A stretch of DNA of 64,000 nt from the NCBI RefSeq assembly GCF_003032475.1, contig NZ_CP028369.1:1736001-1800000 (forward strand), in the 5' to 3' direction. The notes under the pieces are model-generated. The model saw only the letters and a program-made list of their open reading frames with translations, was not told where the DNA came from and did not search any database. The DNA comes from Streptomyces sp. P3. Lineage in GTDB: Bacteria > Actinomycetota > Actinomycetes > Streptomycetales > Streptomycetaceae. A program made the translations under genes and the position numbers. Below are positions 25,113-45,924 of the stretch, piece by piece (the first letter of the stretch is position 1; each line of letters starts with the position of its first letter).

Positions 25113-25880
25113 TCAGGCACCTGGCCACCGCGCGAGAACCCCTCGGCGCTGCAACTCCCTTATGTGTTCCGCCATCCGTCCCGGCATGGGACCGCCGTTC
25201 AGCAGCACGCCCGCCTCGATGTTGCGCTCGGCGCCGGCCGCCGTGAGGTTGGCGCTGGAAAGAAAGAGGATCCGGTCGTCGGCCACCGCCAGCTTCGCGT
25301 GCAACCGGCTTCCGGGAGTGGGGCGTTGACCCGACGGCCAGTGCCAGAGCCGCAGGCCCGGTACGCGGGAGAAGGCATCGGCCGGCTCACGCCCGGAGAG
25401 TAGCCCGCCCGCGCCTTCCAGCGTCTCCACGACGATGTCCACTGTGACGCCCCGGGCCACAGCCTCGAACAGCGCTGCCGTCAGCGGTGCGTACGAGCGG
25501 GCCGAGTAGGTCACGGCGACGAGCCGGTGCTCTGCGGCGCCGACCACCTCCGTAAGCACCTGGGCGGTAGCGCGGCTGGGTGTCCCAGGCGTGGAAGGGC
25601 CGCTCCACACCGCACGGGCCTCGGTGTCCTCGCGCTGCCGGGTCCAGGCCGCCGCGTAACCCCGCAGATACGCCGCTGTCTCCGCCGAGGGAACGCCGTC
25701 CTCCGTCATCGACGCCAGCAACGCCGACACGGCTTCCAGCGCGGCCGGCGTCTGAAGCCTGCCGCGGATGTACGCAGGGGAGCGGCCCTGGGAGAGGAGC
25801 GTGGCCAGCGCCTTAGTCCGTGTGGGCCCGAGCGACGCGGCGGCCATCGCTGCCGCCGCCTCGAAGCGTCTGCGGCTCAC
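25113..25880 (-). CDS. drmC: DrmC, phospholipase D-like protein of DISARM
   Basis: GTG 25880, 13 bases after the drmB stop, opens a 255-residue frame. The C-terminal half carries one phospholipase D motif, RLHAKLAVADDRILFLSSAN (HxK...D...SAN) near residue 193, typical of DrmC. The N-terminal half is helical. DrmC is a core DISARM component, although it was reported as dispensable for defence in the Bacillus system. The position directly after drmA and drmB confirms the identity. Confidence 0.88.
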   Translation of the reverse strand: MSRRRFEAAAAMAAASLGPTRTKALATLLSQGRSPAYIRGRLQTPAALEAVSALLASMTEDGVPSAETAAYLRGYAAAWTRQREDTEARAVWSGPSTPGTPSRATAQVLTEVVGAAEHRLVAVTYSARSYAPLTAALFEAVARGVTVDIVVETLEGAGGLLSGREPADAFSRVPGLRLWHWPSGQRPTPGSRLHAKLAVADDRILFLSSANLTAAGAERNIEAGVLLNGGPMPGRMAEHIRELQRRGVLARWPGA

Positions 25881-25893
25881 CTGGTCGATCCGC

Positions 25894-27828: not shown

Positions 27829-30800
27829 GACCGCCGCCCCCTGGCCGTGCCGTTGTCGTCGCCGTTCCCGTCCGCGTCCGGCGCCTCGCCGAGTTCGTCG
27901 CCGCTCGCCGTATCCGGGCCGTCGCCGTTCTCCTCGGGGGGGCCGAACTCCCAAGCAGTGCCGGCCGGGGCCGACAGCACGGTGTCGGCGGACAACAGCA
28001 TGTTGATCTCATTCTCCGTTTCGCGCATCGACTGCGGGACGGTGAGCACGTCCCATCCGCTGCCGTCCGCGTTGCGCAGCAGGCCCAGCACCGTCTGCTT
28101 CTGCCGGGTCTGGCCCCGGTAGCCGAGCCGGCCCTGCTCACCCTTCTTGGCCGTCCAGGCGTCACGCAGGGCGTCGATGCGCTCGGCGAGGTAGCCGCGC
28201 GCCCGGTCCCCGTCCACGGCCTCCGCGCGCTCCAGCAGTCGTCGCTCGACGTCCCGCACACGCGGATCGTCGAGGTCCACGCCCCCCGCATCCACGTTGT
28301 CGGAGAACTCGTCGCACGCCTGCCGCACGGCGGAGACATACGTGGCGGTGGTGCCCCGGTCGAGCGCCCGGCGCGTGAACGGAGTCACCGACAGCGCCTC
28401 GACCTGCCGGTAGAACGTCGCGTGGTAGTGCTCGAAGTCCTCGAAGTGGGCTAGGTCGCGGGGCCGCGCCCAGTTGTAGAGCGTGATCACGATGCCGGGC
28501 CGCTTGGCCTGACGTCCGACACGGGAGGACGCCTGAATGTACTCGGCGGTGTTCTTCGGCTGCCCGGTAACGACCATCAGGCCGAAGCGGGAGACGTCGA
28601 CACCCACCTGCAGCATCGACGTGGCCAGCACGTGGTCGACCGGCCTGCGGTGCAGCGGGGCGGGCAGTACTCGCGGCTCACGGGCCCTCCCCGCATCCCG
28701 GAGCTCGTCGACAATCGCCTTCTTGCGCACCGACGTGTCGTGCTCCGGGTTGAACCCGATCTCCAGCCGCTTGAGGGTGGCGCTGATCTCCGCCGACGAG
28801 ATACGGGAGGTCAGCTCCTGGAGGTTGAGCATGTCGGTGTCGCGCAGCAGCCGGTTGGCGATGCCCCGGCGGCGTCCGTTGGCCCGCAGCCGGCTCGGCA
28901 CGTCGTCGTCCAGGACCCGCCGCATACCGGCGAGTTCCTTGGTCGCGTTGAAGTACCCGACCACCGTCATGTACGGATCGGCGGGAGCGCCGTAGAGGTC
29001 GAACATGTGCTGCCCGGCGAGCAGGAGGATCTCTGCGACACGGATCTCGGCAGCCTTCATACGCACCCCGTGCGCGCAGACGCCGTAGTAACGCCGCCCA
29101 GGGTTGTCACGGGTGACGTCGACCTGTTGGGAAAAGAAGGTGTCGCCGACGTCGACCACCTGCGGCGGGAAGATCGCCAGGTCCCGGGCGAACACGCCCA
29201 GCACCTGCGCACGGGCGTTGCGAGTGGTGGCTGTCGACGCGACGATCTTCGGCCCGGTGTCCCGGAGCTGCCCGTGTGCATCCTTCGCCCGCCAGGTGCA
29301 CAACTGGTCAACAGCTGACTCGAACAGCCCCACTGTGGTGCCCAACGCCCCGGAGATCAGGTGCAGCTCGTCCTGGATGATGAGATCCGGAGGCCGCAGC
29401 CGCCGCGGCATAGGCCGGCTGGTCACGGCCTTGTGCCAGTCCTTGGCGTTATGCCGGGACCCGCATCCGATCTCCTCGTCGAGGTCGTCGTGGCGGTAGC
29501 CATGCCGATCGCAGTAGGCACTCACGCGCCCGAACAACATTCCCGCATAACCGCGCCACGGCAGCTGGGCGAGCTTGTCCACGGTCGCGATCAGCAGGCT
29601 CGGCACCAGCCGGTAGATCTCCTCGTCGACCGTGAGGATCGGCAGCCCCTCGCCCCGCGCTCGCATCCGGGAGAACGGACACGGCTCCGCGTCCTCGCCG
29701 CGCGGGCAGTACACGATGACGCGCCGCCGTACATCATCAGGCGCCACGTCCCGCCACGCGCGCAGTTCCTCGCCGCACCACGGGCAGGACAGCACCTGGA
29801 GGACGTTCGCGTGCCGTCCCGAGGCGGACTCGTTGGCCTCGGCGATCTGCTGCGCAGCGTCCCCATACCAGTTCGGCGAGACACCGGCACCGACCCACAG
29901 CCCGATACGGAACGGCCTGCTGCCCCAGACCTCCTCGTCCTCCCTGCGGAGCACCTCCGTCGCACACACCAGGGCGGAGGCCCGTTGGAACTGCTGGGCC
30001 GTCAGCAACCGCAGCGTGTAACGCATCAGTACAGCGACGCCGTCCCGCCCCTCACGGGCGTCCTCCCCCTCCCCGACGGCCTTCTGGAGCCGCCGGATAG
30101 CGAACGTGTAGGCCGTGAGACCGAGATACGCCTCCGTCTTGCCGCCACCGGTCGGGAAGAACAGGAGGTCAACCGTGGCAGTGCTGTCCGCCCTGCGCTC
30201 CTTGTGCACGGGGTCGGTCAGGGAGCACAGGTTGAGGAGCACGAACGCCAGCTGGAAGGGGTACCAGCTTGCGGCCACCGCGCCGCGTCCGTCGACCTCG
30301 GCGTAGGCCGCCGCGTATGTGGGCGGCTTTTCACCGCCCTCGGCCCGCAGCGCGGCCGTCGCCGTGGCCCGACGCTGCATGGCCATGGCCCGGTTGGCGA
30401 AACGGAACGCCCGTAGCGCGTCGCGGTCGGTGTGCAGCAGCTCGATGCCGAGGGCGATCCGGCCGCACGCATCGCGGGCCTCGTCGACCGCCCGCAGCGC
30501 GGTGGTCCGCAGTTCGCCCGACAGCGACTCCGCCTTGGCGGCCTGCTGTTGCAACCAGCCGTCGTAGCCGTCGGCCAACGGCTGCAGGGCCTTCAGCAGT
30601 TCGTCGCGCCGCTCCCAGACGGCCAGTTCGGCGAGCTCGTCCATGCTCACCTCAAGACCGGCGAGCAGCGGTTGCCGAGCCGAATTCGGCGCGACCGTGG
30701 CCGGCACGTCTTTCACCGGCAGCCAGGTCGTCTCCAACCTGACCGCGCGCCGCCCCTTCGGCAGGACACTCGCGTGCACGGCGACGTTCCGTCCATGCGC

Positions 30801-31670
30801 GTGCTTCAACTCCTGCCGGTACAGCAGCCGCAGATGCTGTTCCTCGGGGTTCTCCAGGATGTGGCCGGGCTCGTCGTCGGACAACGGGTCGTCGATCGGC
30901 AGGAAGACGCTTGACTGCCCGTCGAAGGAGGTAACTTCCAACTTCGTCTGGAACAGCCACTGCCCGTCCCGCAGTTCACGGGACTCCTCCAGCGCGTTGA
31001 TCAGCGACACGTCGACGAAGCGCAGGTTGTTCGCGCCGTCGACCGTGCCGGGGCGCTCCCGCACGTGCACGTCGAGCCGGATGCAGGGGAGGTCCGGGCC
31101 GGTGTCGTCGACGCCCTCCAGAACCTTGCGGACGGTGCCCGGCGAGTCGACATGAATGTCCACCGCGTACCGGATGGGCTCGCGCGACCACGCCCGCACA
31201 GCCCGGCCGTCGTCGGTCTTACTGTCGCTCTGCCTGTATCGGCCCCAGGACGCGACAACGCTGAGAATGCCCACATCGGCCGGCACCAGGAAGCTCAGCC
31301 CCATGGACGACGCCCACAGCCGTCCGGCGGCCTGTGGGGTGAGTCGCTCTGCGAGCTCAGGGTCCCGCCCGTCCCCCTGAGCGCTGACCTCGGTCTCCGC
31401 CTGGCCCGCCGCGACGTTCACGGGCGCGTCGGTCGGTGCGGGCCGGGGCCCAAGTAGCCCAACGAGGTAGCGGTCACGGGGCCCCGCACTGTGCGGCGCC
31501 AGCGCCTCGGTCTCGTCCGCCCACGGTCCCAGTAGATCCCGTGAGATCAGATCACCGAGCTCCTCCCGGACGTCGTACGACGTCCCTGACCGGAAGGTCT
31601 GCGGGACCTCGTCCACGGGGTGGGGAACGCCCGGCTCTGGAACGGGGGCGTTCTGTGGTGACGACGGCAT
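27825..31670 (-). CDS. drmA: DrmA, large helicase of DISARM
   Basis: The product has 1281 residues from ATG 31670, with GGAGGG eight bases upstream. It is a superfamily 2 helicase: Walker A FFPTGGGKTEAYL near residue 507, IIQDELHLISG (DExH-like) near 762, STATTRNA near 812, and motif VI SSRVGRQAKRPG near 1050. A cysteine-rich insertion (SCPWCGEEL, CPRGEDAEPCPF) lies between motifs I and II. DrmA is the DISARM signature gene. Here it opens the drmABC operon and is separated from drmMI by the recombinase gene and the inversion cassette. Confidence 0.93.
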   Translation of the reverse strand: MPSSPQNAPVPEPGVPHPVDEVPQTFRSGTSYDVREELGDLISRDLLGPWADETEALAPHSAGPRDRYLVGLLGPRPAPTDAPVNVAAGQAETEVSAQGDGRDPELAERLTPQAAGRLWASSMGLSFLVPADVGILSVVASWGRYRQSDSKTDDGRAVRAWSREPIRYAVDIHVDSPGTVRKVLEGVDDTGPDLPCIRLDVHVRERPGTVDGANNLRFVDVSLINALEESRELRDGQWLFQTKLEVTSFDGQSSVFLPIDDPLSDDEPGHILENPEEQHLRLLYRQELKHAHGRNVAVHASVLPKGRRAVRLETTWLPVKDVPATVAPNSARQPLLAGLEVSMDELAELAVWERRDELLKALQPLADGYDGWLQQQAAKAESLSGELRTTALRAVDEARDACGRIALGIELLHTDRDALRAFRFANRAMAMQRRATATAALRAEGGEKPPTYAAAYAEVDGRGAVAASWYPFQLAFVLLNLCSLTDPVHKERRADSTATVDLLFFPTGGGKTEAYLGLTAYTFAIRRLQKAVGEGEDAREGRDGVAVLMRYTLRLLTAQQFQRASALVCATEVLRREDEEVWGSRPFRIGLWVGAGVSPNWYGDAAQQIAEANESASGRHANVLQVLSCPWCGEELRAWRDVAPDDVRRRVIVYCPRGEDAEPCPFSRMRARGEGLPILTVDEEIYRLVPSLLIATVDKLAQLPWRGYAGMLFGRVSAYCDRHGYRHDDLDEEIGCGSRHNAKDWHKAVTSRPMPRRLRPPDLIIQDELHLISGALGTTVGLFESAVDQLCTWRAKDAHGQLRDTGPKIVASTATTRNARAQVLGVFARDLAIFPPQVVDVGDTFFSQQVDVTRDNPGRRYYGVCAHGVRMKAAEIRVAEILLLAGQHMFDLYGAPADPYMTVVGYFNATKELAGMRRVLDDDVPSRLRANGRRRGIANRLLRDTDMLNLQELTSRISSAEISATLKRLEIGFNPEHDTSVRKKAIVDELRDAGRAREPRVLPAPLHRRPVDHVLATSMLQVGVDVSRFGLMVVTGQPKNTAEYIQASSRVGRQAKRPGIVITLYNWARPRDLAHFEDFEHYHATFYRQVEALSVTPFTRRALDRGTTATYVSAVRQACDEFSDNVDAGGVDLDDPRVRDVERRLLERAEAVDGDRARGYLAERIDALRDAWTAKKGEQGRLGYRGQTRQKQTVLGLLRNADGSGWDVLTVPQSMRETENEINMLLSADTVLSAPAGTAWEFGPPEENGDGPDTASGDELGEAPDADGNGDDNGTARGRRS

Positions 31671-31858
31671 GCGCGTATCCCTCCCTGGGTGCGGACCGGC
31701 ACCCGCGAATAACGATAGGGGGACCCACTGACATTGGTGGGGTCACGGTGAGCCGCACAGGGCCGTGCCGGTTCGGCAACGACCCAAAGCCGCCGCGAGG
31801 GCCCAGCTGGCTTCGTGGACCCGCCGAGCTACCGCAAGCCCCGCGGTGGGACACCACT

Positions 31859-32722
31859 TCAGCCTCGGGCTTCATGGCGGCACGACAGGCATTGGTGCGA
31901 GCTTGTTCTCCGCCCCTTCGGCCGTGATGCGCCCGGGTCAGCTCCTGGAAGATCAAGCACAACCACGTGAACACGGTCGTCCGCGACGGCCGCGTACCCA
32001 GCTGTGGTCGCTGGAGACGCGTGACGCATCAGGCGTTGCGTCATGAGAAGGTCTCTGCCGGAAGAGCGGTAGACCATCGTTCCGTATCGGTGTCTCAGCT
32101 GGTGGTAGCGCATTCGGATGCCGATCTTTGCAGCGATCCCGGCGACAGTTCGGGAGACGGATTCGGCACGCGTTCCTTCCCAGAATCTGCCACTTCCCGT
32201 CAGGTCGAGTGCCTTCATGACGACCGGTGGCACAGGGATGGTGTCCGTGCGTCCACCCTTGCCTGTCACGCGGAGTATCGCTGTGCCGTCATCGAGAGTT
32301 GATAGGTCTTCCCTGGCAAGTTTGGCCGTTTCGTGCGCGCGGAGGCCGCAGAAGGCCCCTAGCAGGACCCAGGTCTTGTGCGCTCCACGTGTGCCTGCGG
32401 TAAGCCGCTTGAGTTCATCTTCTGGGAGCGGATGAGGTGTTGACCGGGGTGCTGCGGGCTTGCGTATGCCCTCTATGAGGTCCACTCCCAGCCACTTTCC
32501 AAACGCCTGGAGATGGTTTAGGTAGGTTCTGCGCGACCATGGGCGTAAAGGGCGTACGGCGAAGTACGCGATGACGTGATCGACCTTGAGCTGGCCTGCG
32601 GTTACGCCGGCAGAGCGGGCTATGGCCTTGATGCAACGTACTCGGGCTCCGATGGTGTTGGTCGAGTAGCCGTCCGCCCGCTGAGCCTCAGTGAACTTGT
32701 CGAGTGTCATAGGGAACGTCAT
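31859..32722 (-). CDS. Tyrosine recombinase, candidate invertase of the drmMI switch
   Basis: The product has 287 residues from ATG 32722. Catalytic residues are in order: Arg in FCGLRAHETAKL near 127, Lys in VTGKGGRTDTIP near 152, HQLRHRYGT near 208, and LMRHASPATTAGYAAV near 230-243 with the nucleophile Tyr. An N-terminal SAM-like core-binding domain covers about residues 1-90. It resembles small XerC/D-like recombinases, not an element integrase. It sits immediately outside the left 266-bp inverted repeat (92 bp gap), between drmMI and drmA, so it is the obvious enzyme for inverting 32815-34850. Dedicated activity is inferred. Confidence 0.85.
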   Translation of the reverse strand: MTFPMTLDKFTEAQRADGYSTNTIGARVRCIKAIARSAGVTAGQLKVDHVIAYFAVRPLRPWSRRTYLNHLQAFGKWLGVDLIEGIRKPAAPRSTPHPLPEDELKRLTAGTRGAHKTWVLLGAFCGLRAHETAKLAREDLSTLDDGTAILRVTGKGGRTDTIPVPPVVMKALDLTGSGRFWEGTRAESVSRTVAGIAAKIGIRMRYHQLRHRYGTMVYRSSGRDLLMTQRLMRHASPATTAGYAAVADDRVHVVVLDLPGADPGASRPKGRRTSSHQCLSCRHEARG

Positions 32723-32814
32723 GTGCCTGGTTGTGGAGCGCTTACCGTGACGCGATGAGTTTGGCGAGATCCGCCCCTAAATCGTCCTGACCTGCGCTCT
32801 TGGCAACCGGCGAT

Positions 32815-33080
32815 CGTCTGGTAGCGAACAAGGGCCAGTCGTTCCAGGGGTCCAACGTGCTGGGGAAGGGCTTCATCGTCACCCCTGAACAGGCCCACGA
32901 CCTCATCCAACGCGACCCTCGCAACAAGGACGTCCTCTTCCCCTACCTCAACGGCGAGGACCTCAACTCCCGCCCAGACTGCTCAGCCAGCCGCTGGGTG
33001 ATCAACTTCCATGACTGGAGCGAGGAACGGGCCCGGGGATACCCCGAAGTATTCGCCATCGTCGAAAGAGACGTGAAACC
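32815..33080 (+). repeat. Left 266-bp inverted repeat
   Basis: Identical, in reverse complement, to 34585-34850 except at position 32913 (C; the partner, 34752, reads as T in this sense). It encodes about 89 residues, from RLVANKGQSFQGSNVLGKGF to IVERDVKP. It begins at CGTCTGG and ends at GTGAAACC; matching stops abruptly on both sides. A GAAC-N11-GTTC dyad (32826-32844) inside it is one possible crossover site, weakly supported. Confidence 0.95.
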
Positions 33081-33837
33081 CGAACGGCTCAAGAACACCA
33101 ACCGTCAACGTCGCGAGATCTGGTGGCGGTTCACCCGTCCTGCAATGGATCTTTACCGTGCCATCTCTAACTTGGACCGTGTTCTGGTGGTAGCGCTTGT
33201 CAGTCGAACCGTCATGCCAGCTCGTGTACCCAGCCGCCAAGTCCTCTCTCATAAATTGGGAGTCTTCGCTACGGCCGAGGATAGCGACCTCGCCCTACTT
33301 TCGAGTTCATTCCACTCGATTTGGGCATGGCGCAATTCATCAACAATGAAGGCGGATCTCAATTACTCTCCGTCCGATGTTTACGAGACATTCCCTCGAT
33401 CTGTCACCACTGTCGAAGTCCGAAGCAATGGGGGAATTCTCGACAGGTTGAGATTTGATGTGATGATTGACAGAAGTATAGGACTCACAAAGCTATACAA
33501 CATGGTCCATGACCCTGCAGCGAAGGATAGTGACATCGAGTCTCTGCGCGAGAGTCACCGGAAGATCGATCAGTCTGTACTCGAGTCCTACAATTGGCAA
33601 GATATCGACCTCGCTCACGATTTCTATCCAAATCGACAGGGTACGCGATTCACGGTCGCACCATCGGCTCAGATTGAAATCCTAGACAGGCTTCTTGAGC
33701 TTAATCATGCTCAGCATGAAAATAACTCACCACAAAATTCCCCTCACGCAATGGATCGGCATGCCATTGCGGCCGGATCGGCAGTTCATGGTCAGGAACA
33801 TCTAACTCCGGTGCGCGACGGGGATACCCTGTTCTGA
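33081..33837 (+). pseudogene. Silent alternative C-terminal cassette of drmMI
   Basis: The open frame runs from inside the left repeat to TGA 33837 without a plausible start of its own, and encodes about 252 residues after the repeat. It aligns along its length with the expressed DrmMI tail: LYRAISNLDRVLVVALVSRT versus LYRAIADLDRVLVVARVSRT, then a WAW block, a Y-x-PSD-x-x-ETFP block, GLTKLYN, RFTVAP, EILDRLLELNH and a shared GDTLF end. The intervening sequence diverges strongly. This is what alternative target-recognition domains look like. It is a stored cassette rather than a dead gene. Confidence 0.87.
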
Positions 33838-33865
33838 CATACTTCTCAGAACAGGGTATCCCCGT
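33818..33865. terminator. Shared bidirectional terminator at the centre of the switch
   Basis: Perfect 20-bp arms (33818-33837 and 33846-33865) around an 8-nt loop. Each arm encodes the common GDTLF end and includes the TGA stop of one cassette. The hairpin is symmetrical, so it would end the drmMI transcript equally well in both orientations. Confidence 0.75.
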
Positions 33866-36800
33866 GGAGTGCGACGACTCCTTCGCTGTCGCGCATCAGT
33901 GATTGCTCCAGTCGTTCACGGCTTGCCGCATCTGTTTCTCGATTGAATCGCGTGTGGTTGAGCTCAAGGAGTCTGTCCAGGATCTCATTTTGCGCAACTG
34001 GAGCGACAGTGAAGCGGACCCCATTGCGGGTTTCGTGGAATCCATGACCGAGGTCAAGGTCGCCCCATTCGTAAGCTTCAACAACCGCCTCATCGACAGC
34101 TTTATGGCACTCACGGAGCTTATTTATGTCACTAGCAGAAACCTGTGGATCATTGACCAGGTTATAAAGTTTCGTGAGGCCGCATTCTCGGTTCCGCATG
34201 ATTACAGTGCGATTTTCACTCAGGTTCTTTCCGGGAGATTCCAAGAGAGGGAGATGTTGCGGCATGGGAAATGTTTCAAAGCAATCGGACGGAGTGTACT
34301 GAAGGTCAGATTTCAAAGTCGCCGAATATTTCCATGCCCATAGTACGTGAATACTTGAGTTCAGCAGGGCCATTACATCAACACGGTCACTAGCAAAGAG
34401 AACGATCTTCTCGTTCAATACCTGACCCGTGGGCACGATGGTCGCCATGGCCGTTCGGCTCACCCGTGCTACCACCAGGACACGATCGAGATCCGCAATC
34501 GCCCTGTAGAGCTCAGGACGGCTTCTTTCGTAGAGCCACCAGCGCTCTCGGGCATTCTTGCTGTGTGTAACGCGAAGGCGGATCGGTTTCACGTCTCTTT
34601 CGACGATGGCGAATACTTCGGGGTATCCCCGGGCCCGTTCCTCGCTCCAGTCATGGAAGTTGATCACCCAGCGGCTGGCTGAGCAGTCTGGGCGGGAGTT
34701 GAGGTCCTCGCCGTTGAGGTAGGGGAAGAGGACGTCCTTGTTGCGAGGGTCACGTTGGATGAGGTCGTGGGCCTGTTCAGGGGTGACGATGAAGCCCTTC
34801 CCCAGCACGTTGGACCCCTGGAACGACTGGCCCTTGTTCGCTACCAGACGGTACGGCCGCCCCGAAACCCGAGACCGCGGATCAAGCGACGAAGTGATAC
34901 CCCGGACCGCGACGCCGTCCAGCACCCGAGTGGCTTCCGCACCCAAACCCGGCTTGGTGGTCCACACAGCGCAGTACTCCAGCGCCGCAGACCGCGAAGG
35001 CCAGCGAGCGCTCTTTACTGCTCGGCGTACCTCGATGCCGTCGTCGAGTAGCTGGTCAAGGCCGACCTCCCTAGTGTCGCCCTGGGCAAGGGTGTTGGTA
35101 GCGATCAGGCCCGTCTGGCCGCGCTCGCTGAGCAACTGGTGGGCCCGGAGCTCGAAGTATGCGACGAGGTCCGCGCTACCTCGCTGCCCTCGCCCCAGCC
35201 CAAGCACGAGGTACTCGCGGTATGCCTGCCCGAGCGCCCCCGTCAGTTTCTGGCCGCCGAGGAAAGGAGGGTTGCCGATGATGGCATCGAAGCCGCTCTG
35301 GTCCGGCTCGAAGACCTCGGGGAAGACGAGAGGCCAGTGCACGGGGAGGCGAACGAAGCCGTCTGTGGGGAGATCCTTGCTCAGCCAGTCCAGAGCTCGC
35401 CTCCGCGCGTCGTGAATCACGGGGTCGGAGTCCCGGACCGACTCCGAGGCGACCATGCCGGCCAGCTCCGCAGCCTGGATGTAGGTAGCACTCTGCAATG
35501 AGTCCCCGCCACCCGCTGAGGCGAGACCAGCCCCCGTCGTGAGGTCGCCGATCAGCCGCAGGCGTTGCAGGTGTTCGTTGGTGGCCGCGAGCAGGCGCCG
35601 CTTCTCATCCAGGTCGGCAATGGTGTCGCTCTGGATTCCGGCGATGGCCTGCCGGTTGTCTGCCGCGCCGTGGACGCGAGCACGCGCACGCTCGGTCCAC
35701 CCCTCCTCGAAGGCTCCCCGGTGGAGTTTGCGGCCCGCCTTCGGATCGAGATGAACGCTCTCGATCTGCTCCAGGTTGGCGATACCCAACAGCGAGTCCC
35801 CCGCCACCAACCGGTCGTCCAGAAACGTGAACGGTCGTCCCGGGTCCATGGAGATCAGCCACAGCGACAGCTTGGCCATCTCCACCGCCATGGGATTGAT
35901 GTCCACCCCGTACAGGCAGTGTTCGATGATCAGGCGCCGGGCGCGGACCATTACCGGGTCGCTCTCCGCGTCCGCCGCCGTCATCGCGCCCGCTTGGTCG
36001 CGGTGGCTTCCACGGAACGCTAGGGCCTCCTCGTCCTCTGCCTCGACCCAGGCGTCGACCAGACGGTCCGCAAGGTACCGGCAGGCGGCCACCAGGAAGG
36101 CGGCCGAACCCATCGCGATGTCGGCGACCTTGAGCTTCAGGATGTCGTCCGCGCCGATGAGCTTCCACTGCTTGTCGTCCGCCGTCTGGAGCGGGCCCGG
36201 ACGGTAGACGAGTGGCTCCAGTGCTCCCACTGCGACCTGCTGGGCCAGGACACGCGGCGTGTAGTGGGTGCCGGTGTTCTTGCGGAGGCGGGACTCTGTG
36301 ACGTACAAGCCGTCTTCCGGGATCACCACCGGCAGACCGCGAAGGTCGTCGCGGAGGAGGCCGTGGAAGGGGAGGATTCGCTCGGCCAGGTCGCGGTCGT
36401 TCTCAGTGACCGCGAGCAGGCGGTGGGTCGCCTTGCCCCGCACCTGGTCGTCTCCAGGGGCGAGCAGCTTCTCCATCTTCGACGCCGCAGCTGGCGGCCT
36501 GGGGTCCTTCAAGTGCTCGTACAGTTTCTTCGACAGGCCAGGGAGATCGGGCTTCTGACCGGAGACGGCGCGTGCGCCCACTCCGAACGGGGCAGCCAGT
36601 TCCTCCAGTTCGGTCAGGCTCACCTCGTGTTCCAACCCGGGCTTGCCGATGAGCCCGAGCACGGTGTCCTGGGCGCGCTTGCCGTCGTACGAGAGGAGGC
36701 CCTCGTAGACGTAGCCGATCTGCTCGACGTCGAGGGCGCGGAAGGTCAGCCGGCGCCGCTCCCTGTTGACGACGACGAACTGCACCGAGTCGAGGACGTG

Positions 36801-38156
36801 TAGGACGGTGCGGTCGTCGATCGGGAGGAGGGAGGTGTGGCCGTCAGCGGCCCGCGTGGCGTCGTCGCCCGTGGCGTCCGCGCCCTCCGGGACTGCCTCC
36901 AACCAGGGGAAGCGCTTCGGGTCGAAGATCGAGCCGTCATACGCGGGCAATGTGAGCAGCGGGTGGTCCACTCCGCCGTGGACGGCGTGGAAGAGGGCGA
37001 TCAGCCGGTGCCAGGCGGCGGTGGTGTGGTCCAGGGAGTCCTCGCCGTCCGCGCGGCGGCGTTTGTCCAGCGTCTCGTACAGCCGGCCAGCCGAGTACGC
37101 GTCCGCATAAAGCTCGTTGTCCGCGGGCAGCAGGCCCCGTTCCTCGGCGAAGAGGAGGAAAACGACGCGCATCATGACCGCAACGGCGCCCCGGTAGACC
37201 TCGCTCGCCGGTACGCCTGACAATCCCTTGCCGCCGCGTTTGACCATCCGGGCCTCGGCGCGGCCGATGGAGTCCACCAGGAGTTCGACGGCTTGACGGA
37301 CCTGGATGCCGAGCGCCTCGGTGACGTCTTCCTGACCGTCCAGGCTCTCGCGCAGCAGCGCAGGGAGCAGTTCGTCCACCGGGCGTCCGAAGAACCGACC
37401 GCGGCGGAGGAGGGACACCCAGGCGCGGACCGCCACCAGGTCGGCCGCCTCATTCCAGGCGATGGTGTCGAAGGTGGCGCTCGTCGTGACGCCGCCGGGG
37501 GGTGCCCAGACCAGGGACCACCAACGGCCGTCGGTGACCAGGCCCAGCTCGACGCCATGGTGGCGCAGGACGTGGGCGAGCCGGTCGACTCCGCTCGCCG
37601 CCCAGGAGTCGTCCTTGATACGGCGGGTCGGCACGGTGTCGGGCGGGAGGACCAGGCCGAGGATCGGTACATGCTGGGCGGTGCCAGCAGTATCCGGTTC
37701 GGCGGTGGGGTCGGTTCCGGGACGGACGAGGGCGAAGTCGGGGCGGACGGTGGTGTCGGACCCGGGCGGGCTGACGGCGAACCGGTCCAGCAGCGTGTCG
37801 TCCTCGGCCAGGCTTTCGCCGTTGTCGCCGAACTGTCCGGCGCCCTCGCGCAGATGCAGGGCGTCGTCCCATTCCAGCAGGGCGCGCAGCTGGAAGTCGA
37901 TCCAGTTGAGGCGGCCGGCGCCCTTGCGGTCGTCCTGCCAGATGCCGTGGTGGAGGCGGATGTCGGCGCGGCGCCCGCTGGGCACGCCTTCCAGCTGTGG
38001 CCAGCTGCGCAGCAGGACCGGCAGGGTGAGGAACGGGCCGGACACCTCGACGAGGTTCAGCCAGTCCAGGTGCTGCTGCTTGCCGTCGGACGCCTTCGCG
38101 GCACGGATTGCGGCGGCGGAGGGGCGGCGGCTTCCGGAGCGCGGCGCGGAGCTCAT
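33846..38156 (-). CDS. drmMI: DrmMI, adenine-specific DNA methyltransferase of class 1 DISARM (PglX-like)
   Basis: The product is 1436 residues; its ATG 38156 overlaps the drmD stop by one base (TGATG). It belongs to the Eco57I/PglX group of N6-adenine methyltransferases. The SAM motif region is VADIAMGSAAFLVAAC near residue 679, and the catalytic motif IV is GNPPFLGGQ near 959. Residues about 1103-1190 are encoded in the right inverted repeat, and 1191-1436 form the exchangeable C-terminus (target-recognition region). It should methylate host DNA so DISARM ignores it. An alternative C-terminus is stored at 33081-33837, so the encoded specificity is likely switchable. Confidence 0.92.
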   Translation of the reverse strand: MSSAPRSGSRRPSAAAIRAAKASDGKQQHLDWLNLVEVSGPFLTLPVLLRSWPQLEGVPSGRRADIRLHHGIWQDDRKGAGRLNWIDFQLRALLEWDDALHLREGAGQFGDNGESLAEDDTLLDRFAVSPPGSDTTVRPDFALVRPGTDPTAEPDTAGTAQHVPILGLVLPPDTVPTRRIKDDSWAASGVDRLAHVLRHHGVELGLVTDGRWWSLVWAPPGGVTTSATFDTIAWNEAADLVAVRAWVSLLRRGRFFGRPVDELLPALLRESLDGQEDVTEALGIQVRQAVELLVDSIGRAEARMVKRGGKGLSGVPASEVYRGAVAVMMRVVFLLFAEERGLLPADNELYADAYSAGRLYETLDKRRRADGEDSLDHTTAAWHRLIALFHAVHGGVDHPLLTLPAYDGSIFDPKRFPWLEAVPEGADATGDDATRAADGHTSLLPIDDRTVLHVLDSVQFVVVNRERRRLTFRALDVEQIGYVYEGLLSYDGKRAQDTVLGLIGKPGLEHEVSLTELEELAAPFGVGARAVSGQKPDLPGLSKKLYEHLKDPRPPAAASKMEKLLAPGDDQVRGKATHRLLAVTENDRDLAERILPFHGLLRDDLRGLPVVIPEDGLYVTESRLRKNTGTHYTPRVLAQQVAVGALEPLVYRPGPLQTADDKQWKLIGADDILKLKVADIAMGSAAFLVAACRYLADRLVDAWVEAEDEEALAFRGSHRDQAGAMTAADAESDPVMVRARRLIIEHCLYGVDINPMAVEMAKLSLWLISMDPGRPFTFLDDRLVAGDSLLGIANLEQIESVHLDPKAGRKLHRGAFEEGWTERARARVHGAADNRQAIAGIQSDTIADLDEKRRLLAATNEHLQRLRLIGDLTTGAGLASAGGGDSLQSATYIQAAELAGMVASESVRDSDPVIHDARRRALDWLSKDLPTDGFVRLPVHWPLVFPEVFEPDQSGFDAIIGNPPFLGGQKLTGALGQAYREYLVLGLGRGQRGSADLVAYFELRAHQLLSERGQTGLIATNTLAQGDTREVGLDQLLDDGIEVRRAVKSARWPSRSAALEYCAVWTTKPGLGAEATRVLDGVAVRGITSSLDPRSRVSGRPYRLVANKGQSFQGSNVLGKGFIVTPEQAHDLIQRDPRNKDVLFPYLNGEDLNSRPDCSASRWVINFHDWSEERARGYPEVFAIVERDVKPIRLRVTHSKNARERWWLYERSRPELYRAIADLDRVLVVARVSRTAMATIVPTGQVLNEKIVLFASDRVDVMALLNSSIHVLWAWKYSATLKSDLQYTPSDCFETFPMPQHLPLLESPGKNLSENRTVIMRNRECGLTKLYNLVNDPQVSASDINKLRECHKAVDEAVVEAYEWGDLDLGHGFHETRNGVRFTVAPVAQNEILDRLLELNHTRFNRETDAASRERLEQSLMRDSEGVVALHGDTLF
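34585..34850 (-). repeat. Right 266-bp inverted repeat inside drmMI
   Basis: Reverse-complement copy of 32815-33080 with one difference in 266 positions (34752). It lies inside drmMI, covering codons of residues about 1103-1190. Near-perfect identity in DNA where the flanking cassettes have diverged suggests frequent gene conversion or recombination between the copies. Confidence 0.95.
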
Positions 38157-41100
38157 CAGTATGCCTCCTTGGCGGGGATGACGAAGACGACGGCGACGGG
38201 GAAGAGATGGTCCTGCGGCTCGCGGTAGCGGGCGGCGATCGCGGCGAGTTCGCGCTCGCGCTCGTCCTCCACGCCGTCGAGCCGGGCCCGCCAGCGCTTG
38301 CGGTCGTCGGCGAGCTGGCGGCGTTCGTCGGGATCCTTCAGCTCGTCCAGGCCGAAGAGCGTGTCCATCCCGCCCGTCGGGGAGGCCGCCGTAGCGGAGG
38401 AGGTCTCGCCGAGCCGGTTCCGCAGAGTGCGCTGGAGACGGTCGAGGGTGGCGTTGATGCGCTGCTCCTCATCGGCCTGGCGCTCGGCCAGCCGGTCCAT
38501 CAGGGACACCTTGCGTTCCTTGCCGCGCGCGTCGACGGACTGGGTGAGGCCCTCGTACGTCTTCGGCCAGCTCTGCTGGAGCCGGTGGAGCAGGCGCTCC
38601 TTGGCGGGGCGGCCCTCGGTGAGCGCGCGGTCCAGGATCGAGGCGACCGCCTCCACTCCGCGCAGCCGACGCTGCCAGCCGTTGTCGCCGAGCCAGCCAC
38701 CCGCGTGCAGGATCTCCTCATGGAGGCGCTGCCCGTCCGTGCCGACCAGCACGAAGCGGGCGTACGCGCCGACGAACGTGGTCTCCAGGGCGGGGTCGTC
38801 GCTGACGACGGCCGTGATCCGGCGCAGGTCGACGTTGTCCGCGTTCCAGACGGCCGCGCGCAGCAGCCGCGTCGACATGGCTACCAGCGGATGGTTCAGA
38901 TGGGCCAGCACGATGTCGGGGCGCCCCGAAGCTGCTCGCGCATCGAATGTGACCGGGCGAAGGACGTCGGGGCGGAGCTTGTCGGGCAGGCCGCGGGTGG
39001 CGCGCTCCCACGAGCCGGTCAGCGGTGGCACGGTGTACAGGCCCTGCCGGAAGTCGTCCTCGGACGGCGCGTTCTCGTCGAGGCACGGTACGAGGGGCTG
39101 CTGGCGGGCCAGGTTCAGCGCAGTATTCACCACGCGGGCGACCCGATCCGGGGTGATGCCGAGTTCCACGGTCGTCTGCTTCAGCTGGGTGCTGAGCCGC
39201 CGCACCTGGTCGGTGACGTTCTGTTCGGCGTCCACCTTGCCGCCTGTGGGACGACCCTTGATCTTCTTCGCTCGGGCGTGCTCGATGTCGAAGTCGCTGA
39301 GCTGGCCCGTCATCCGCAGCTGTACCTTCTCAGCGAGTACGGCGTTGACCTCGCCGAGGTCCTCCTCCATCTGCGCGACCTTCCGCGCGATGCGGGCGAG
39401 GAACTCCAGGTCGGCCTCGTACACGTCCGTCCTGGCCTTGTCCCAGGCGGCGCCGACGAAGTGCATGATCTGCGGGTTGTATCGCTGGCCGTAGCGATCG
39501 ATGCGGCCGATGCGCTGTTCGAGCTTGTTGGGGTTGAACGGGATGTCGTAGTTGATCAAATGTCGACAATGATCTTGGAGGTCAATTCCCTCGCTTGCGG
39601 CGTCAGTAGCGACGAGGATGCGTACCGTGCCCTCGGGGCTGGTGGGCTGTTCCTGGAAGGCGAGCCGGATCTGCTCACGCTCTTCGGCATTCTTCCCGCC
39701 GTGGAGGGTGAGGACGCGGCCCTCCTGGGCCAGGCCCTCCTGGGCCAGGCCCTCCTGCTGGAGCAGGTTCAACAGCCAGTCTTGGGTGTCGCGGTACTCG
39801 GTGAACACAACGACCCGCTCGTTCCCCCAGTTCCCGCCGGTGAGGCAGATGGCCTTGAGGGTCTTGACGAGCTCCTTGGCCTTGGCGTCAGGGGACGCCT
39901 GGTGGGCCTGGCCCCAGCGGGCCATCCGCTCCAGCAGCTCGGCCTCTTCCTCGGAAGATCCCGGGGTGACCGTGGCGGCGCGGGTGATCGCGTCGTGCTC
40001 GGCCTCGGCCAGCTCCTCGTCGTCGAGCTCGGCGGCGTAATCCTCGTACTGCGTGATCCACAGCGGGGTCTCGACCGGGGCCGGAACCTCCTTTTTTCCG
40101 CCTGACTTCGCCTTGGCGCGTACCGATTCGAGGTGGACACCGACGGTGTGCGCGAAGGCGGCGGGAGAGGAGAACAGCCGCTTCTTCAGCAGCAGGGTGA
40201 CCAGGTCGACGGCCTTCCGGCCGCCGCGCCGGTCGGGGGTGACCCGCTTCTTGCGCAGTTCTGCGTAGCGAGTGAGGAGGGCGTGGATCTCGCGCTCGGT
40301 GTCGGGGTACTCGACAGGCAGCGCCTTCGACTCGCGGACGTGGAAGCGGGGGTTGCCTTCCTCGTCGGTCACGGAGGTCTTCAGACGTCGTACGACGGTG
40401 TCGTCGAGGGCGGCCTTGTCCGGCTCGCCGCCGCGGAAGAAGCGCTGGTTGTCGATCAGCTCCAGCAGAGCCGTGTACGACTCCTGGTAGCCGTTGTGCG
40501 GGGTGGCGGAGAGGAAGAGCCTGTGCTCGAAATGGGGGGCCAGGCGCCGGATCAGCTTGGTCTGCTGGGAGTCGACGGCGTAGATCTGCTTGGGCGCGCT
40601 CGGGGCGACATGGTGTGCCTCGTCCAGGATCAGCAGATCGAAGGTACGGCGCCCGGGGCGTCCCGGCAGCTCCGTCGACCCTCCCGGGGGTAGCACCTCG
40701 TCGATAAGCCGCTGCGCCTTGGGCGTGCGCAACCAGGGGAGGCTGACGATGGTCAAGGGGAACACTCGGAACGGGTTGGCGGCGCTGCTGTGCGTGCGGC
40801 GCAGTTCGGCGCAGCAGGCAGAGTCGACCACGGTGAAGTCGAGGCCGAACTTGTCGGCCATCTCGTCGCGCCACTTGAGGGTGAGCCCCGCTGGGCAGAC
40901 AACCATGACGCGATGGGCCCGGCCGCGCAGCCGCAGCTCCTCGGCGACCAGTCCGGCCTCCACGGTCTTACCGAGGCCGACATCGTCGGCGAGCAGCAGA
41001 TTGACGCGGGGGGCGCCGACGGCGCGAGCGACCGGTTCCAGCTGGTACGGCTCGATGGCCACCCCTGACCGGAAGGGGGCCTGGAGCGTCTTCACGTCAG

Positions 41101-41419
41101 CGGAAGCGACGGCGGACCAGCGGACGGCGTCGAGGAAGGCCGCGAGCTGCTCCGGCTGGTCGAACGCTCCGGTGGAGGCGTCGGGAAGGGAGCCGGCGGG
41201 GAGGACGCGGCGCCCCGGCTCGACCTCCCATATCACGGAGAGGGTGTCGCCGTAGCGGCCATCGGCAACAGACTGTAGATGCACCACAGTGACATCGCCG
41301 GCCGGGGCGGCTTCGACTCCGGACACCACCCAGTTCTGGCCGCGCACCTGGACGAGAGCATTCTCCTTCGGCGGCGCGACGATTGCGGAGGCTTCGGAAG
41401 TACGGGTGGTTCCGGGCAT
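38156..41419 (-). CDS. drmD: DrmD, SNF2-family helicase of class 1 DISARM
   Basis: I choose ATG 41419 because GGAGG lies eight bases upstream; a frame to 41440 exists. The product has 1087 residues. SNF2/RapA-like motifs are in order: LADDVGLGKTVEAGL near 145, LILDEAHHVAP near 267, FLSATPHNGY near 295, and QRIGRIDRYGQRY near 640. DrmD is the class 1 marker of DISARM and is thought to act with DrmMI. A 15-bp tandem repeat (39719-39748 and a partial third copy) encodes EGLAQEGLAQEG. The gene is coupled to drmMI through the overlapping stop/start. Confidence 0.92.
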   Translation of the reverse strand: MPGTTRTSEASAIVAPPKENALVQVRGQNWVVSGVEAAPAGDVTVVHLQSVADGRYGDTLSVIWEVEPGRRVLPAGSLPDASTGAFDQPEQLAAFLDAVRWSAVASADVKTLQAPFRSGVAIEPYQLEPVARAVGAPRVNLLLADDVGLGKTVEAGLVAEELRLRGRAHRVMVVCPAGLTLKWRDEMADKFGLDFTVVDSACCAELRRTHSSAANPFRVFPLTIVSLPWLRTPKAQRLIDEVLPPGGSTELPGRPGRRTFDLLILDEAHHVAPSAPKQIYAVDSQQTKLIRRLAPHFEHRLFLSATPHNGYQESYTALLELIDNQRFFRGGEPDKAALDDTVVRRLKTSVTDEEGNPRFHVRESKALPVEYPDTEREIHALLTRYAELRKKRVTPDRRGGRKAVDLVTLLLKKRLFSSPAAFAHTVGVHLESVRAKAKSGGKKEVPAPVETPLWITQYEDYAAELDDEELAEAEHDAITRAATVTPGSSEEEAELLERMARWGQAHQASPDAKAKELVKTLKAICLTGGNWGNERVVVFTEYRDTQDWLLNLLQQEGLAQEGLAQEGRVLTLHGGKNAEEREQIRLAFQEQPTSPEGTVRILVATDAASEGIDLQDHCRHLINYDIPFNPNKLEQRIGRIDRYGQRYNPQIMHFVGAAWDKARTDVYEADLEFLARIARKVAQMEEDLGEVNAVLAEKVQLRMTGQLSDFDIEHARAKKIKGRPTGGKVDAEQNVTDQVRRLSTQLKQTTVELGITPDRVARVVNTALNLARQQPLVPCLDENAPSEDDFRQGLYTVPPLTGSWERATRGLPDKLRPDVLRPVTFDARAASGRPDIVLAHLNHPLVAMSTRLLRAAVWNADNVDLRRITAVVSDDPALETTFVGAYARFVLVGTDGQRLHEEILHAGGWLGDNGWQRRLRGVEAVASILDRALTEGRPAKERLLHRLQQSWPKTYEGLTQSVDARGKERKVSLMDRLAERQADEEQRINATLDRLQRTLRNRLGETSSATAASPTGGMDTLFGLDELKDPDERRQLADDRKRWRARLDGVEDERERELAAIAARYREPQDHLFPVAVVFVIPAKEAY

Positions 41420-41549
41420 GCGGACATCCTCCACTATCACTATGGGCGAGACGGCGGTGCCTACCGGAGTGCCTCATACTGACGAGCGATTCGTGCGTTG
41501 ACCTAGATCACATACTTTCTCTCCTGGTTGTGGACGGGGCGTCGGCGGG

Positions 41550-43205
41550 TCACTGCGGGAGGCGGAGCGCGCGGGTCAGTCTGCCCAGGCGGCTGACCAG
41601 ACGCTCCACCTCGGCATGGGCGGGATGGTCGGGAGGCAGCGCGGTCCGTTGGTCGTCGGCGAGGTGGCGCAGAGCCTCCAGGGCTTCACCAGCCGAGCCT
41701 GAGCCCGCCAGGAGGGTGGCGATGTCCCGGCGGGTCTCCAACACCTCCGGATCCAGCAGGGGAAGCACCTCCTTCTGGAGATCGAGTGCCTCGCGAAGCT
41801 CCAGGAGGGCGGCGGAGTTGTGCCCGAGCCGGCCAAGGCAGCGGGCCGCCATCACCCGGCAAGCCGCGAGGTCCGCGTCCGGCGCGGAACGGGTCGACAC
41901 GAGGGTTTCCGCGAGCTCCAGGCAGCCCTCGCGTGCCGCTTGCAGTTCCTGCCCTTCGAACTGCAACCGGAGGATGGCCAGTCGGCGGGAGACGACCTCC
42001 GGATGGGAGGAGTCGAAACGGGGCAGCACCTCGTTGAGATCCCTGCCCAGCAGCTCCAGTGCCTGTGACAACCGTCCCTCTGCCGCAAGACGTTGCGCGC
42101 GCTCGCGCAGGTCCGCCGACTCCGCGGGCGACCCGGCCCCGGAGGTGGACGGCGGTTGCGCTGGCTGAACGGAAGGTTGTGCAGTTGCGAGCGGGGCCGG
42201 GGCGTGCTCCGGAACGGATGCGTGCGCTTTGTCCGAAGGAGGATCGTTCGGAAGGTCGCTGCCATCGTGCGGCAGGCGCGCGGTGGCCTTGCCGGGCCTC
42301 GGCGTTCCGCCGCGGGCGGCCTTCGGCACCGCCTGCTCGGCCCAGGGCGCGAGGGTCTCCCGGACTTCGGCTGCGTCCGCCGGCCGGTCCTCCGGGCGCT
42401 TCGCAAGTAAGCGGGAGACCAGGTAGCACAGTTCGGCTGGTGCGTCGTCACGCAGCCGTTCCAGTGGTACTGGAGTATCGGCGATGTGCTGGACCACCAG
42501 GGCCAGTGGCTCGTCGGCCGTGAACGGCGGTCGTCCGCCCAGTATCTCGTACAGCACGCACCCCAGTGCGTACAGATCACTGAGGGGAGTGGCCGCCTGC
42601 CCCTTGCCTTGCTCTGGAGAGATGAAGCCCGGAGTACCGGCCACCATGCCGGCGTCGGTCAACCGTGGCCCGTCCGGTGGTTGCAGGGCGGTGGCGATAC
42701 CGAAATCCAGGACGCGTACCGTGCCATCTGTCGTGAGCATCACGTTGCGGGGCGTCAGATCCCGGTGGACGAAGCCGCGTCCGTGAGCTTGAACCAGCAC
42801 GGAGCACACCTGGGCGCCCACTGCGGCGGCCCACTCCACGGGAAAGGGTCCGCGCTGGGCCACCAACCGGTCCAGCGTGTGTCCGTACACGCGCTGCATG
42901 ACCAGATAGAGCCGACTCGCTCGATGGGTGCCTGCATCATGGATGACCGGTACGTACGGATGCTCCAGCTTGGCCATCAGTCGCGCTTCTCTGGTGAAAC
43001 GGACGACGGCGGGGTCCTGCGGATCGAGCCTGCGCGGCGTCTTGGAGACAGCCGTCCGTGGCGTCAGCAGTTTCACCGCCACAGACCGGTCCAGCCGCTG
43101 ATCGTACGCCGCCCACACCTCGCCCATGCCACCTCTGCCGAGCAGCTCCGCCAGCTCGTAGCGGCCGTCGATCAGTTCGCCCCTCGTCAGGTGATGGTCC
43201 CTCAT
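41550..43205 (-). CDS. Serine/threonine protein kinase with TPR-like C-terminal region
   Basis: ATG 43205 has GGGGAAG upstream; the product is 551 residues. Kinase domain residues 10-275: glycine loop LLGRGGMGEVW near 20, VAVKLL near 45, catalytic HRDLTPRN near 146 (Thr replaces the usual Lys of HRDLKPxN), DFG near 166, then GTPGFISPEQ. A Pro/Ala linker follows, then helical repeats from about 400. No transmembrane segment is evident, so it is soluble. It is upstream of and co-directional with drmD (130 bp). Pgl/BREX-related islands can carry kinases such as PglW, but kinase involvement in DISARM is not established. Confidence 0.88.
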   Translation of the reverse strand: MRDHHLTRGELIDGRYELAELLGRGGMGEVWAAYDQRLDRSVAVKLLTPRTAVSKTPRRLDPQDPAVVRFTREARLMAKLEHPYVPVIHDAGTHRASRLYLVMQRVYGHTLDRLVAQRGPFPVEWAAAVGAQVCSVLVQAHGRGFVHRDLTPRNVMLTTDGTVRVLDFGIATALQPPDGPRLTDAGMVAGTPGFISPEQGKGQAATPLSDLYALGCVLYEILGGRPPFTADEPLALVVQHIADTPVPLERLRDDAPAELCYLVSRLLAKRPEDRPADAAEVRETLAPWAEQAVPKAARGGTPRPGKATARLPHDGSDLPNDPPSDKAHASVPEHAPAPLATAQPSVQPAQPPSTSGAGSPAESADLRERAQRLAAEGRLSQALELLGRDLNEVLPRFDSSHPEVVSRRLAILRLQFEGQELQAAREGCLELAETLVSTRSAPDADLAACRVMAARCLGRLGHNSAALLELREALDLQKEVLPLLDPEVLETRRDIATLLAGSGSAGEALEALRHLADDQRTALPPDHPAHAEVERLVSRLGRLTRALRLPQ

Positions 43206-43799
43206 CGTCTTCCCCGCGCCCTTTTGTCGCCCCGGGTTGCCGGTGGTCGCGGAGAGGCCGAGCCATACGGGGCCTCCCCAAGGTGTGTACGCACCCGGTC
43301 CGTCCCGAACCGTCACGGTGGGTGCATGGTCGCTGACGATCCTAGGTCAGCACGAGAGGACCGGGGAGCGGACGAGTAAACCGAAAGTCTCGAAGCTACC
43401 GAATCCTTCACCAGCGCCCTGCCCCACGAGAGTTCCCTGCCCTCAGGAGCGGTATACGACTCACGGTGCTACGCCTCAAGGGGACGGGACAGAGTGCTGG
43501 GGACTTTCACAGACGCGCCGCACGCACGGGTTCGGGGCAGGTCGCGGGCTGGCGAGATTGGCCCTTGCGTCGTGTGCCCTGTTGTCCGTGCTCTCTACAG
43601 TGCGGCTCCTGACCACGTATCAAATCGGGAACCTCCGGCTGTCCGCTCCAGACGACACCAGTCGCCTGAAGGCCGCTTGCGATCCAGGTCCGGTCACAAG
43701 TCGTCATCCGGCACACGGGCAGTCGGCGCACGGGGTGGCCACGCCAGCATGGATTACACGGTCGTGCACGAGAACACGGTGCAGCGAGAGGTGAAGCCC
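43206..43799. other. Intergenic region between divergent kinase and zinc-protein genes
   Basis: This 594-bp stretch lies between divergently transcribed genes and must hold both promoters, but I find no convincing -35/-10 pair. Short open frames in it lack ribosome sites and coding-like composition. An in-frame ATG at 43749 could extend the downstream gene by 17 codons. Confidence 0.4.
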
Positions 43800-45691: not shown

Positions 45692-45924
45692 CGCGTGCCT
45701 CCTTCCGTCTTCCGCCCCCATCGATATCGGCCTGAACGTACCCCATTCTCCTGGAGGCCACTCGGCACAGAAACCGAAGGGCCCATTCAGGGTGAGCCGG
45801 GGACGCCGGACACCCCCTTGCCGCACACGCCGCTGCAACGGGAATCGCCACAGGCCGGCACACGTCCGTGGCATTTTCGGCCACTCACCGGCGGCGCCCG
45901 TATGCGCCGCGTAACCTCACGGGC

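Follow-up and report, generated by a model that had tools for sequence, protein, structure and literature searches.

The DISARM operon and its alternative drmMI ends

The stretch of DNA analyzed here, the window, is 64 kb from the chromosome of Streptomyces sp. P3. It carries a DISARM (defence island system associated with restriction-modification) operon in which the 3' end of the methyltransferase gene drmMI probably lies on an invertible segment. All coordinates are positions within the window; the host genome is 9.85 Mb in a single contig. The genes drmD, drmMI, drmA, drmB and drmC are successive on the minus strand and form one operon-like run (25113–41440). The set drmMI and drmD together with drmA, drmB and drmC defines class 1 DISARM, and with all five genes present the window system is class 1 DISARM. 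Located between drmMI and drmA are a silent second 3' end of drmMI, on the plus strand, and a gene for a tyrosine recombinase. The features are as follows.

25113–26027, minus strand: drmC (PADLOC DrmC, E 1.2e-109)
25894–27954, minus strand: drmB (PADLOC DrmB, E 3e-65; Pfam MZB)
27825–31670, minus strand: drmA, helicase (NCBIfam DISARM_DrmAS, 1,383 bits, cut-off 950)
31859–32722, minus strand: tyrosine recombinase of 287 aa, likely the invertase (Pfam PF00589; relatives in all ten switch loci)
32815–32823, plus strand: CGTCTGGTA, likely crossover block on the recombinase side, at the outer edge of the arm
32815–33080, plus strand: left repeat arm, recombinase side, which begins the silent tail (266 bp, one mismatch to the right arm)
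32815–33837, plus strand: silent alternative 3' end of drmMI, with an MmeI-type recognition domain (open frame; Pfam MmeI_TRD; joined form in protein P0006)
33818–33837 and 33846–33865, both strands: perfect 20-bp stem formed by the identical ends of both tails, stop codons included (inverted-repeat search)
33846–34584, minus strand: unique part of the currently joined drmMI tail (Pfam MmeI_TRD; same tail in protein P0001)
33846–38156, minus strand: drmMI, DISARM adenine methyltransferase of 1,436 aa (PADLOC DrmMI, 1,724.8 bits)
34585–34850, minus strand: right repeat arm, within drmMI, residues 1103–1191 (266 bp, one mismatch to the left arm)
34842–34850, minus strand: CGTCTGGTA, likely crossover block on the gene side, at the outer edge of the arm, encoding Arg-Leu-Val (1103–1105)
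38156–41440, minus strand: drmD, SNF2-like helicase (NCBIfam DISARM_DrmD, 1,339 bits, cut-off 610)

The two arms are 1,504 bp apart and bound a segment of 2,036 bp. The repeat has no matches in the host genome beyond the two arms, and a near-perfect inverted repeat of 266 bp is beyond chance. The reading frame of the silent tail is open across the left repeat as far as the stop at 33837, and inversion of the segment in silico gives a DrmMI of 1,442 aa instead of 1,436 aa, i.e., a full-length protein either way. The repeats join the constant part of the gene to two alternative in-frame recognition tails, and beyond the window both tails are readable at seven further loci. The active and silent tails are 49% identical over their last 235 aa. 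The unique parts of the tails (33081–34584) have a G+C content of 0.52–0.53 compared with 0.69 in the body of drmMI, which suggests that the recognition tails derive from other genomes. The 20-bp stem forms a hairpin at 33818–33865 that encloses both convergent stop codons and may serve as a terminator or as a further site of exchange. DrmMI of the window does not identify as PglX of a BREX (bacteriophage exclusion) system, the best PglX model giving 33.8 bits against a cut-off of 500.

The start codon of the recombinase is 92 bp from the left repeat, as determined from the coordinates. Tyrosine recombinases have catalytic residues in R, K, HxxR, H and Y motifs. An alignment of the recombinases from all ten switch loci described below is free of internal stops, with GLRAHE, GKGG, HQLRH, MRHAS and GYAAV unchanged; by its motifs, all of them present, the recombinase has an intact catalytic domain. 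An apparent interruption of the Streptomyces tuirus recombinase by a TGA was rejected, as this TGA is the end of the gene and is found at the same place in Streptomyces sp. LBL. The nearest solved structure is Gp33 (5vfz), the mycobacteriophage Brujita integrase. The recombinase has few relatives: among 395 related genomes only the host genome and genome G224 have one at E ≤ 1e-60, the host genome alone has one at E ≤ 1e-40 among 396 of the phylum, and 4 of 392 of the genus have one at E ≤ 1e-20, two of them with only 33–36% identity. These two distant relatives (G002, 36%; G283, 33%) were set aside, since no adjoining inverted repeat that pairs with a methyltransferase was seen. The host genome has a single match to the recombinase.

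An earlier note on this DNA, made from the letters alone, had described the two 266-bp inverted repeats with one differing base, the tail-to-tail alternative ends of drmMI with one joined and one silent, a full-length enzyme in either orientation, and the tyrosine recombinase 92 bp outside the left repeat. Coordinates, open frames, the in silico inversion and the PF00589 match bear out each of these.

Orientation and distribution of the segment in related loci

Opposite orientations of the segment are found between species and between strains. The loci of S. tuirus (L098) and Streptomyces sp. LBL (L099) are collinear over 6,865 and 5,973 bp, with identities of 92.8 and 93.0%, and 1,892 bp align in the opposite direction with 89.9% identity. 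Measured from core to core (the core being the likely crossover block), the two segments are 1,876 bp each and have an identity of 89.5% when one is inverted, versus 65.5% as they stand. Cross-matches between their tails are 84% and 89%, and the remaining pairings are 49–55%. The other pair consists of proteins P0001 (Streptomyces sp. FT1) and P0006 (unclassified Streptomyces), whose DrmMI heads are 98.7% and 98.4% identical to that of the window. P0001 and P0006 have 6 differences before residue 1225 and 113 after it; P0001 ends in the active tail of the window and P0006 in its silent tail, such that the silent tail is the joined one in a close relative. An exception is a stretch of about 40 residues just inside the repeat that is alike in P0001 and P0006 and unlike both window tails. 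Comparison of 11 close relatives (those parsed of 15 close-clade sequences; 55 pairs) gives mean identities of 95.6% for the heads, 93.1% for the shared arm and 51.8% for the tails in region V2, which is described below. Both arrangements, as read from these sequences, exist and are complete.

A drmMI relative at E ≤ 1e-100 is present in 33 of 392 genomes of the genus, and drmMI relatives at 80 loci were retained from a scan of genome contigs. Six of these loci (L003, L009, L010, L066, L080 and L081) have an inverted repeat in the 3' part of the gene, followed by a recombinase relative. Only these six, which are the loci showing the complete repeat, have a recombinase relative next to drmMI. 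Both tails are readable in five of them; in L009 the arms are separated by a run of Ns. At three further loci from two genomes, L004 in BV286 and L005 and L006 in SID3212 (the latter two identical across 11,620 bases), the contig ends in or just past the repeat, and the recombinase is on another contig in each genome. The recombinase contig of SID3212 has both tails and the repeat at its end, and that of BV286 starts at the same place of the repeat where the drmMI contig stops. A search for the tails in the sequence of BV286, SID3212 and the L009 genome found them in SID3212 and found none for the other two. At E 1e-3 a recombinase relative is lacking from the other 71 loci, some of which have little downstream sequence. 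Adding the window and G224 gives ten switch loci in all, eight of them with both tails readable. The genes drmD, drmMI and drmA are found together in six: the window, L003, BV286, SID3212, S. tuirus and LBL. When 82 drmMI heads are placed in a FastTree phylogeny, at least 5 changes of the switch label are required (the placement of L080/L081 is flagged as a long-branch join), which implies that the repeat and the recombinase have been gained or lost together, repeatedly.

Genome G224, of the same genus, has a variant switch (L093, 10651–12263) in which the exact repeat is only 41 bp long and lies toward the inner end of the arm. Its tails have a 359-bp stretch in common that is 94% identical, so the difference between them is confined mainly to the recognition segment. 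Four other loci with inverted repeats were rejected as switches. The repeats at L012, L067 and L072 are located outside drmMI, and the one at L036 links two drmMI genes on opposite strands, with no recombinase relative. L036 (8001–19539) has two drmMI-like genes on opposite strands with an inverted similarity of 65–77%, and G121 (C85, 169735–181771) likewise has two drmMI-like genes on opposite strands; this arrangement is possibly a stable two-enzyme version of the same idea. In the nearest switchless relatives, L007, L008, L012 and L056, drmMI and drmA are separated by 3 to 7 kb of other sequence. The host genome encodes a second DrmMI-like protein (G000, C1, 3920694–3923723, plus strand) with 42% identity to the head of the window DrmMI.

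Other defence-like genes surround the operon in the window. A type II Wadjet-like set (JetA2, JetB2, JetC2 and JetD2 by PADLOC; 45868–54402, plus strand) adjoins DISARM on the opposite strand. Directly upstream of drmD is a gene for a kinase-like protein (41550–43316, minus strand) with top PADLOC matches to PD-T4-6, and 21374–23521 (minus strand) encodes a UvrD-type helicase with GajB-like PADLOC matches.

Likely crossover site and recognition domains

When both arms of each locus are aligned with their flanks, all 18 arms from nine loci have CGNCTGGT at the outer edge, at the point where gene-side and recombinase-side sequences become alike. Beyond it, the arms agree at 4 to 14 of the next 30 bases. 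The free base of CGNCTGGT is T, A or G depending on the locus and is always the same in the two arms of a locus. The form CGNCTGGTA is found in 17 of 18 arms, the exception being the recombinase-side arm of BV286, which has GTT. The codon GTA makes up 5% of the valine codons in the heads, yet it is present at the core in 9 of 9 gene-side arms. Matching sites in the two arms are thus seen in 9 of the 10 loci, G224 being without CGNCTGGT. The rarity of CGNCTGGTA, which occurs once per strand in the window and only at the arms, was not used as evidence, as this count is about chance level for eight fixed bases.

Directly inside the core is a region termed V1, which has either a QGSN-type form or an IGSY-type form, the latter often with about 12 extra residues. 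The V1 form differs between the arms in 7 of 9 loci (BV286, L003, SID3212, L010, L066, S. tuirus and LBL), and in five of these seven the run common to both arms around the core is only 8–13 bp. In the window, V1 is identical in both tails and V2 alone differs. In S. tuirus/LBL the inverted segment carried V1 with it, and the position of that crossover is therefore the outer edge. The recombinase most likely crosses over at the CGNCTGGT block at the outer edge of the repeat, judging from these alignments. The earlier note had proposed a switch bounded by the repeats; inversion between the repeats stands, and the whole repeat as the recombination site was dropped in favour of this block, since V1 lies within the repeat, differs in 7 of 9 loci and travels with the segment. 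Arm identity is 98.5–100% within a locus (8 of 8 measured) and 80–95% between loci, BV286 and G224 being excluded from this comparison of 8 of the 10 loci. Near identity within a locus together with divergence between loci is expected if recombination keeps both copies alike, and the rest of the repeat would then represent a conserved part of the recognition domain maintained in two copies.

Both window tails have a Pfam MmeI_TRD match. The DNA-bound structure of MmeI (5hr4) is the only sequence match in PDB, and it is the first fold match for the AlphaFold2 models of both tails (C-terminal 497 residues of the window protein, mean predicted local distance difference test score, pLDDT, 83.2; silent tail, mean pLDDT 87.5). 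By sequence and modeled fold both tails belong to the MmeI-type recognition domains. For MmeI, the residues responsible for reading each base have been defined (PMC4833311). In an alignment to MmeI, V1 coincides within one or two residues with the base-2 loop, and V2 spans most of the other mapped contact positions. At least one mapped contact position differs between the swapped tails in 7 of 7 pairs, although these pairs are partly dependent, i.e., two are the S. tuirus/LBL tails and two are those of the window.

The region mapped to base 3 contains residues that are strictly paired. The R/L/Q residue near MmeI position 751, identified from its own motif, occurs as R with E in 25, L with H in 21 and Q with Q or N in 5 of the 51 rows parsed (4 of 55 unparsed). 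Among 136 proteins parsed (51 of 187 unparsed) the pairs are L/H 73, R/E 54, Q/H 3, Q/N 3, Q/Q 2 and I/H 1. In the window the active form has R/E and the silent form L/H, and the two tails differ at positions mapped to bases 1, 3, 4 and 5. A K-D pair, which specifies G:C at base 6 in MmeI (PMC4833311), is maintained in both window tails; a motif that ends in mA-G, such as the Serratia DISARM motif ACAC(mA)G (PMC9142583), would be compatible with it. L010 has K-D in one tail and E-R in the other, for which G and C, respectively, are predicted at base 6. The two forms of DrmMI are predicted to methylate different motifs; a weak prediction for the window is that both motifs end in mA-G and that they differ at one or more of bases 1, 3 and 4.

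A probable inversion switch in DISARM

The locus probably represents an inversion switch in class 1 DISARM, in which a 2,036-bp segment, likely flipped by the adjacent recombinase, exchanges the recognition tail of DrmMI; we place the probability of this at about 0.85. The earlier note had proposed a recombinase-linked DrmMI inversion switch, and its proposal is supported by the opposite orientations in two related species, by the presence of both products as separate proteins in close relatives and by the recombinase relatives, seen beside drmMI in just the six complete-repeat loci of 80. In the proposed mechanism the recombinase would bind two sites at the outer edges and exchange strands at the core. 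The segment would turn, and everything inward as far as the two convergent stop codons would swap places, with the constant head of DrmMI becoming joined in frame to the other tail. The swap would take in both V1 and V2 in 7 of 9 loci and V2 only in the window. New DNA would then be marked at the other motif and the self-mark of the system is predicted to change. Alternation may take place within one population and give a mixed methylome, which could be of benefit against phages that carry the current mark. Such a benefit cannot be assumed, because in Serratia DISARM the ATPase rate of DrmAB is lower with methylated DNA and phage restriction is possible even without its target sequences (PMC9142583). 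A broader proposal, toward which we lean with less assurance, is that DISARM can be phase-variable, a dedicated recombinase rewriting the self-mark of the whole chromosome by an in-frame flip of the DrmMI tail. V1 and V2 would be exchanged jointly in most loci, and exchange in the shared part between them could yield more combinations.

Several observations weigh against an inversion switch of this kind. Most DISARM loci do without one, as 71 of the 80 drmMI loci show no switch, and the sequence retrieved behind the switch at L009, L010, L066 and G224 yielded no drmA, so that a complete DISARM system is established for only 6 of 10 switch loci. G224 has a recombinase relative without the core block and an arm that shares only 41 bp. 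The mapping of MmeI residues is uncertain by one or two residues at V1 and near residue 751. The opposite orientations are from different species or strains and not from one culture, and a gap-free repeat of 266 bp could recombine even without a recombinase. In another reading, general homologous recombination between the long repeats turns the segment, and the recombinase serves a different purpose or its link to the locus is purely historical. The arms are indeed long and nearly identical within each locus, and G224 shares 41 bp in them but has no core. We regard this as quite improbable, however, in that a recombinase relative is found wherever the repeat is seen in full and in none of the other 71 loci, the recombinase frame is open in 10 of 10 loci, the short outer-edge block is kept in 9 of 10 loci even beside a differing V1, and V1 went with the segment in S. 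tuirus/LBL. It is also possible, although unlikely, that the silent tail serves primarily as a reservoir from which gene conversion supplies drmMI in the course of evolution, with inversion of the whole segment being rare and no switch operating in growing cells. The arms evolve in concert, as a reservoir would have it, and the stretch inside the arm that P0001 and P0006 have in common, which differs from both window tails, implies exchange between copies. Yet the inversion of the whole segment between S. tuirus and LBL and the tail exchange between P0001 and P0006 are both clean, and a dedicated recombinase has been retained.

The remaining alternatives concern what an inversion would change and whether the locus is real. 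If both forms recognized the same sequence and some other trait changed, e.g., protein stability or expression, the K-D pair at base 6 and the V1 shared by both window tails would be accounted for. We find this very improbable, given tails that are 49% identical, with differences at positions mapped to four bases and different members, R/E and L/H, of the strictly paired residue set; moreover, the base-6 pair itself shifts from K-D to E-R in L010. That the arrangement is an assembly error, or a decayed duplicate next to a relict integrase, is hardly credible and already at odds with the related loci: assemblies do break inside the repeat in BV286 and SID3212, and L009 has its run of Ns between the arms, but the genome of the window is one contig, seven other genomes hold loci with both tails open, and P0006 has the silent tail as the active one. 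The inversion switch is the preferred reading, and it can be compared with known systems.

In Streptomyces coelicolor, the phase variation of pglX is by an on/off repeat-tract mechanism. The Pgl (phage growth limitation, type 2 BREX) system of that species resembles the present one in the phase variation of a defence methyltransferase gene within the same genus; no inversion is named in the available text (PMC9122589). The earlier note had pointed to a comparable PglX switch, and backing for it comes only from Lactobacillus rhamnosus (PMC7513527), in which a defence adenine methyltransferase, a second partial copy and an adjoining site-specific recombinase are found as they are here. PglX, like DrmMI, is a single-chain enzyme with its own recognition domain. 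It belongs to another defence system, however, and the available part of that report describes neither a tail-to-tail invertible segment nor a crossover block (PMC7513527). In type I restriction-modification systems with invertible hsdS genes, e.g., in Streptococcus pneumoniae, inversion swaps target recognition domains and hence the methylated motif (PMC4948785, PMC4190663, PMC7394358), as is predicted here, and a tyrosine recombinase can drive such inversion (PMC7096588). There it is a separate specificity subunit that varies, whereas DISARM here has a single-chain methyltransferase with the likely crossover block within the reading frame. MmeI, a type IIL restriction-modification enzyme (5hr4; PMC4833311), shares the recognition-domain fold and sequence family of the DrmMI tails, but it is a fixed enzyme that also cuts DNA and does not undergo inversion. 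Serratia DISARM likewise has a DrmMI-type adenine methyltransferase, with no mention of a switch in the available text (PMC9142583). The present locus is distinctive in its DISARM host system, its single-chain MmeI-like enzyme, its tail-to-tail arrangement, in which the recombinase lies outside, and a likely crossover block in frame just before V1. The earlier note knew of no such switch in DISARM, and no description of DISARM inversion was found among the papers listed in the literature searched (DISARM, BREX, inversion, phase variation; in part the top 20 of 647 and of 233), although this absence is no proof, as bioRxiv and most subscription literature were outside its coverage.

If flipping occurs in growing cells, DISARM has to cope with a chromosome on which the new mark is still missing. 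Such tolerance, if true, would argue that methylation is not the only self test of DISARM, and the extent to which the system relies on methylation for sparing its own DNA becomes testable. The loci also supply natural pairs of DrmMI specificities on one scaffold, from which the recognition code of the DrmMI/MmeI fold may be read. If the inversion switch is real, DISARM would be a further defence system with a specificity that DNA inversion can switch.

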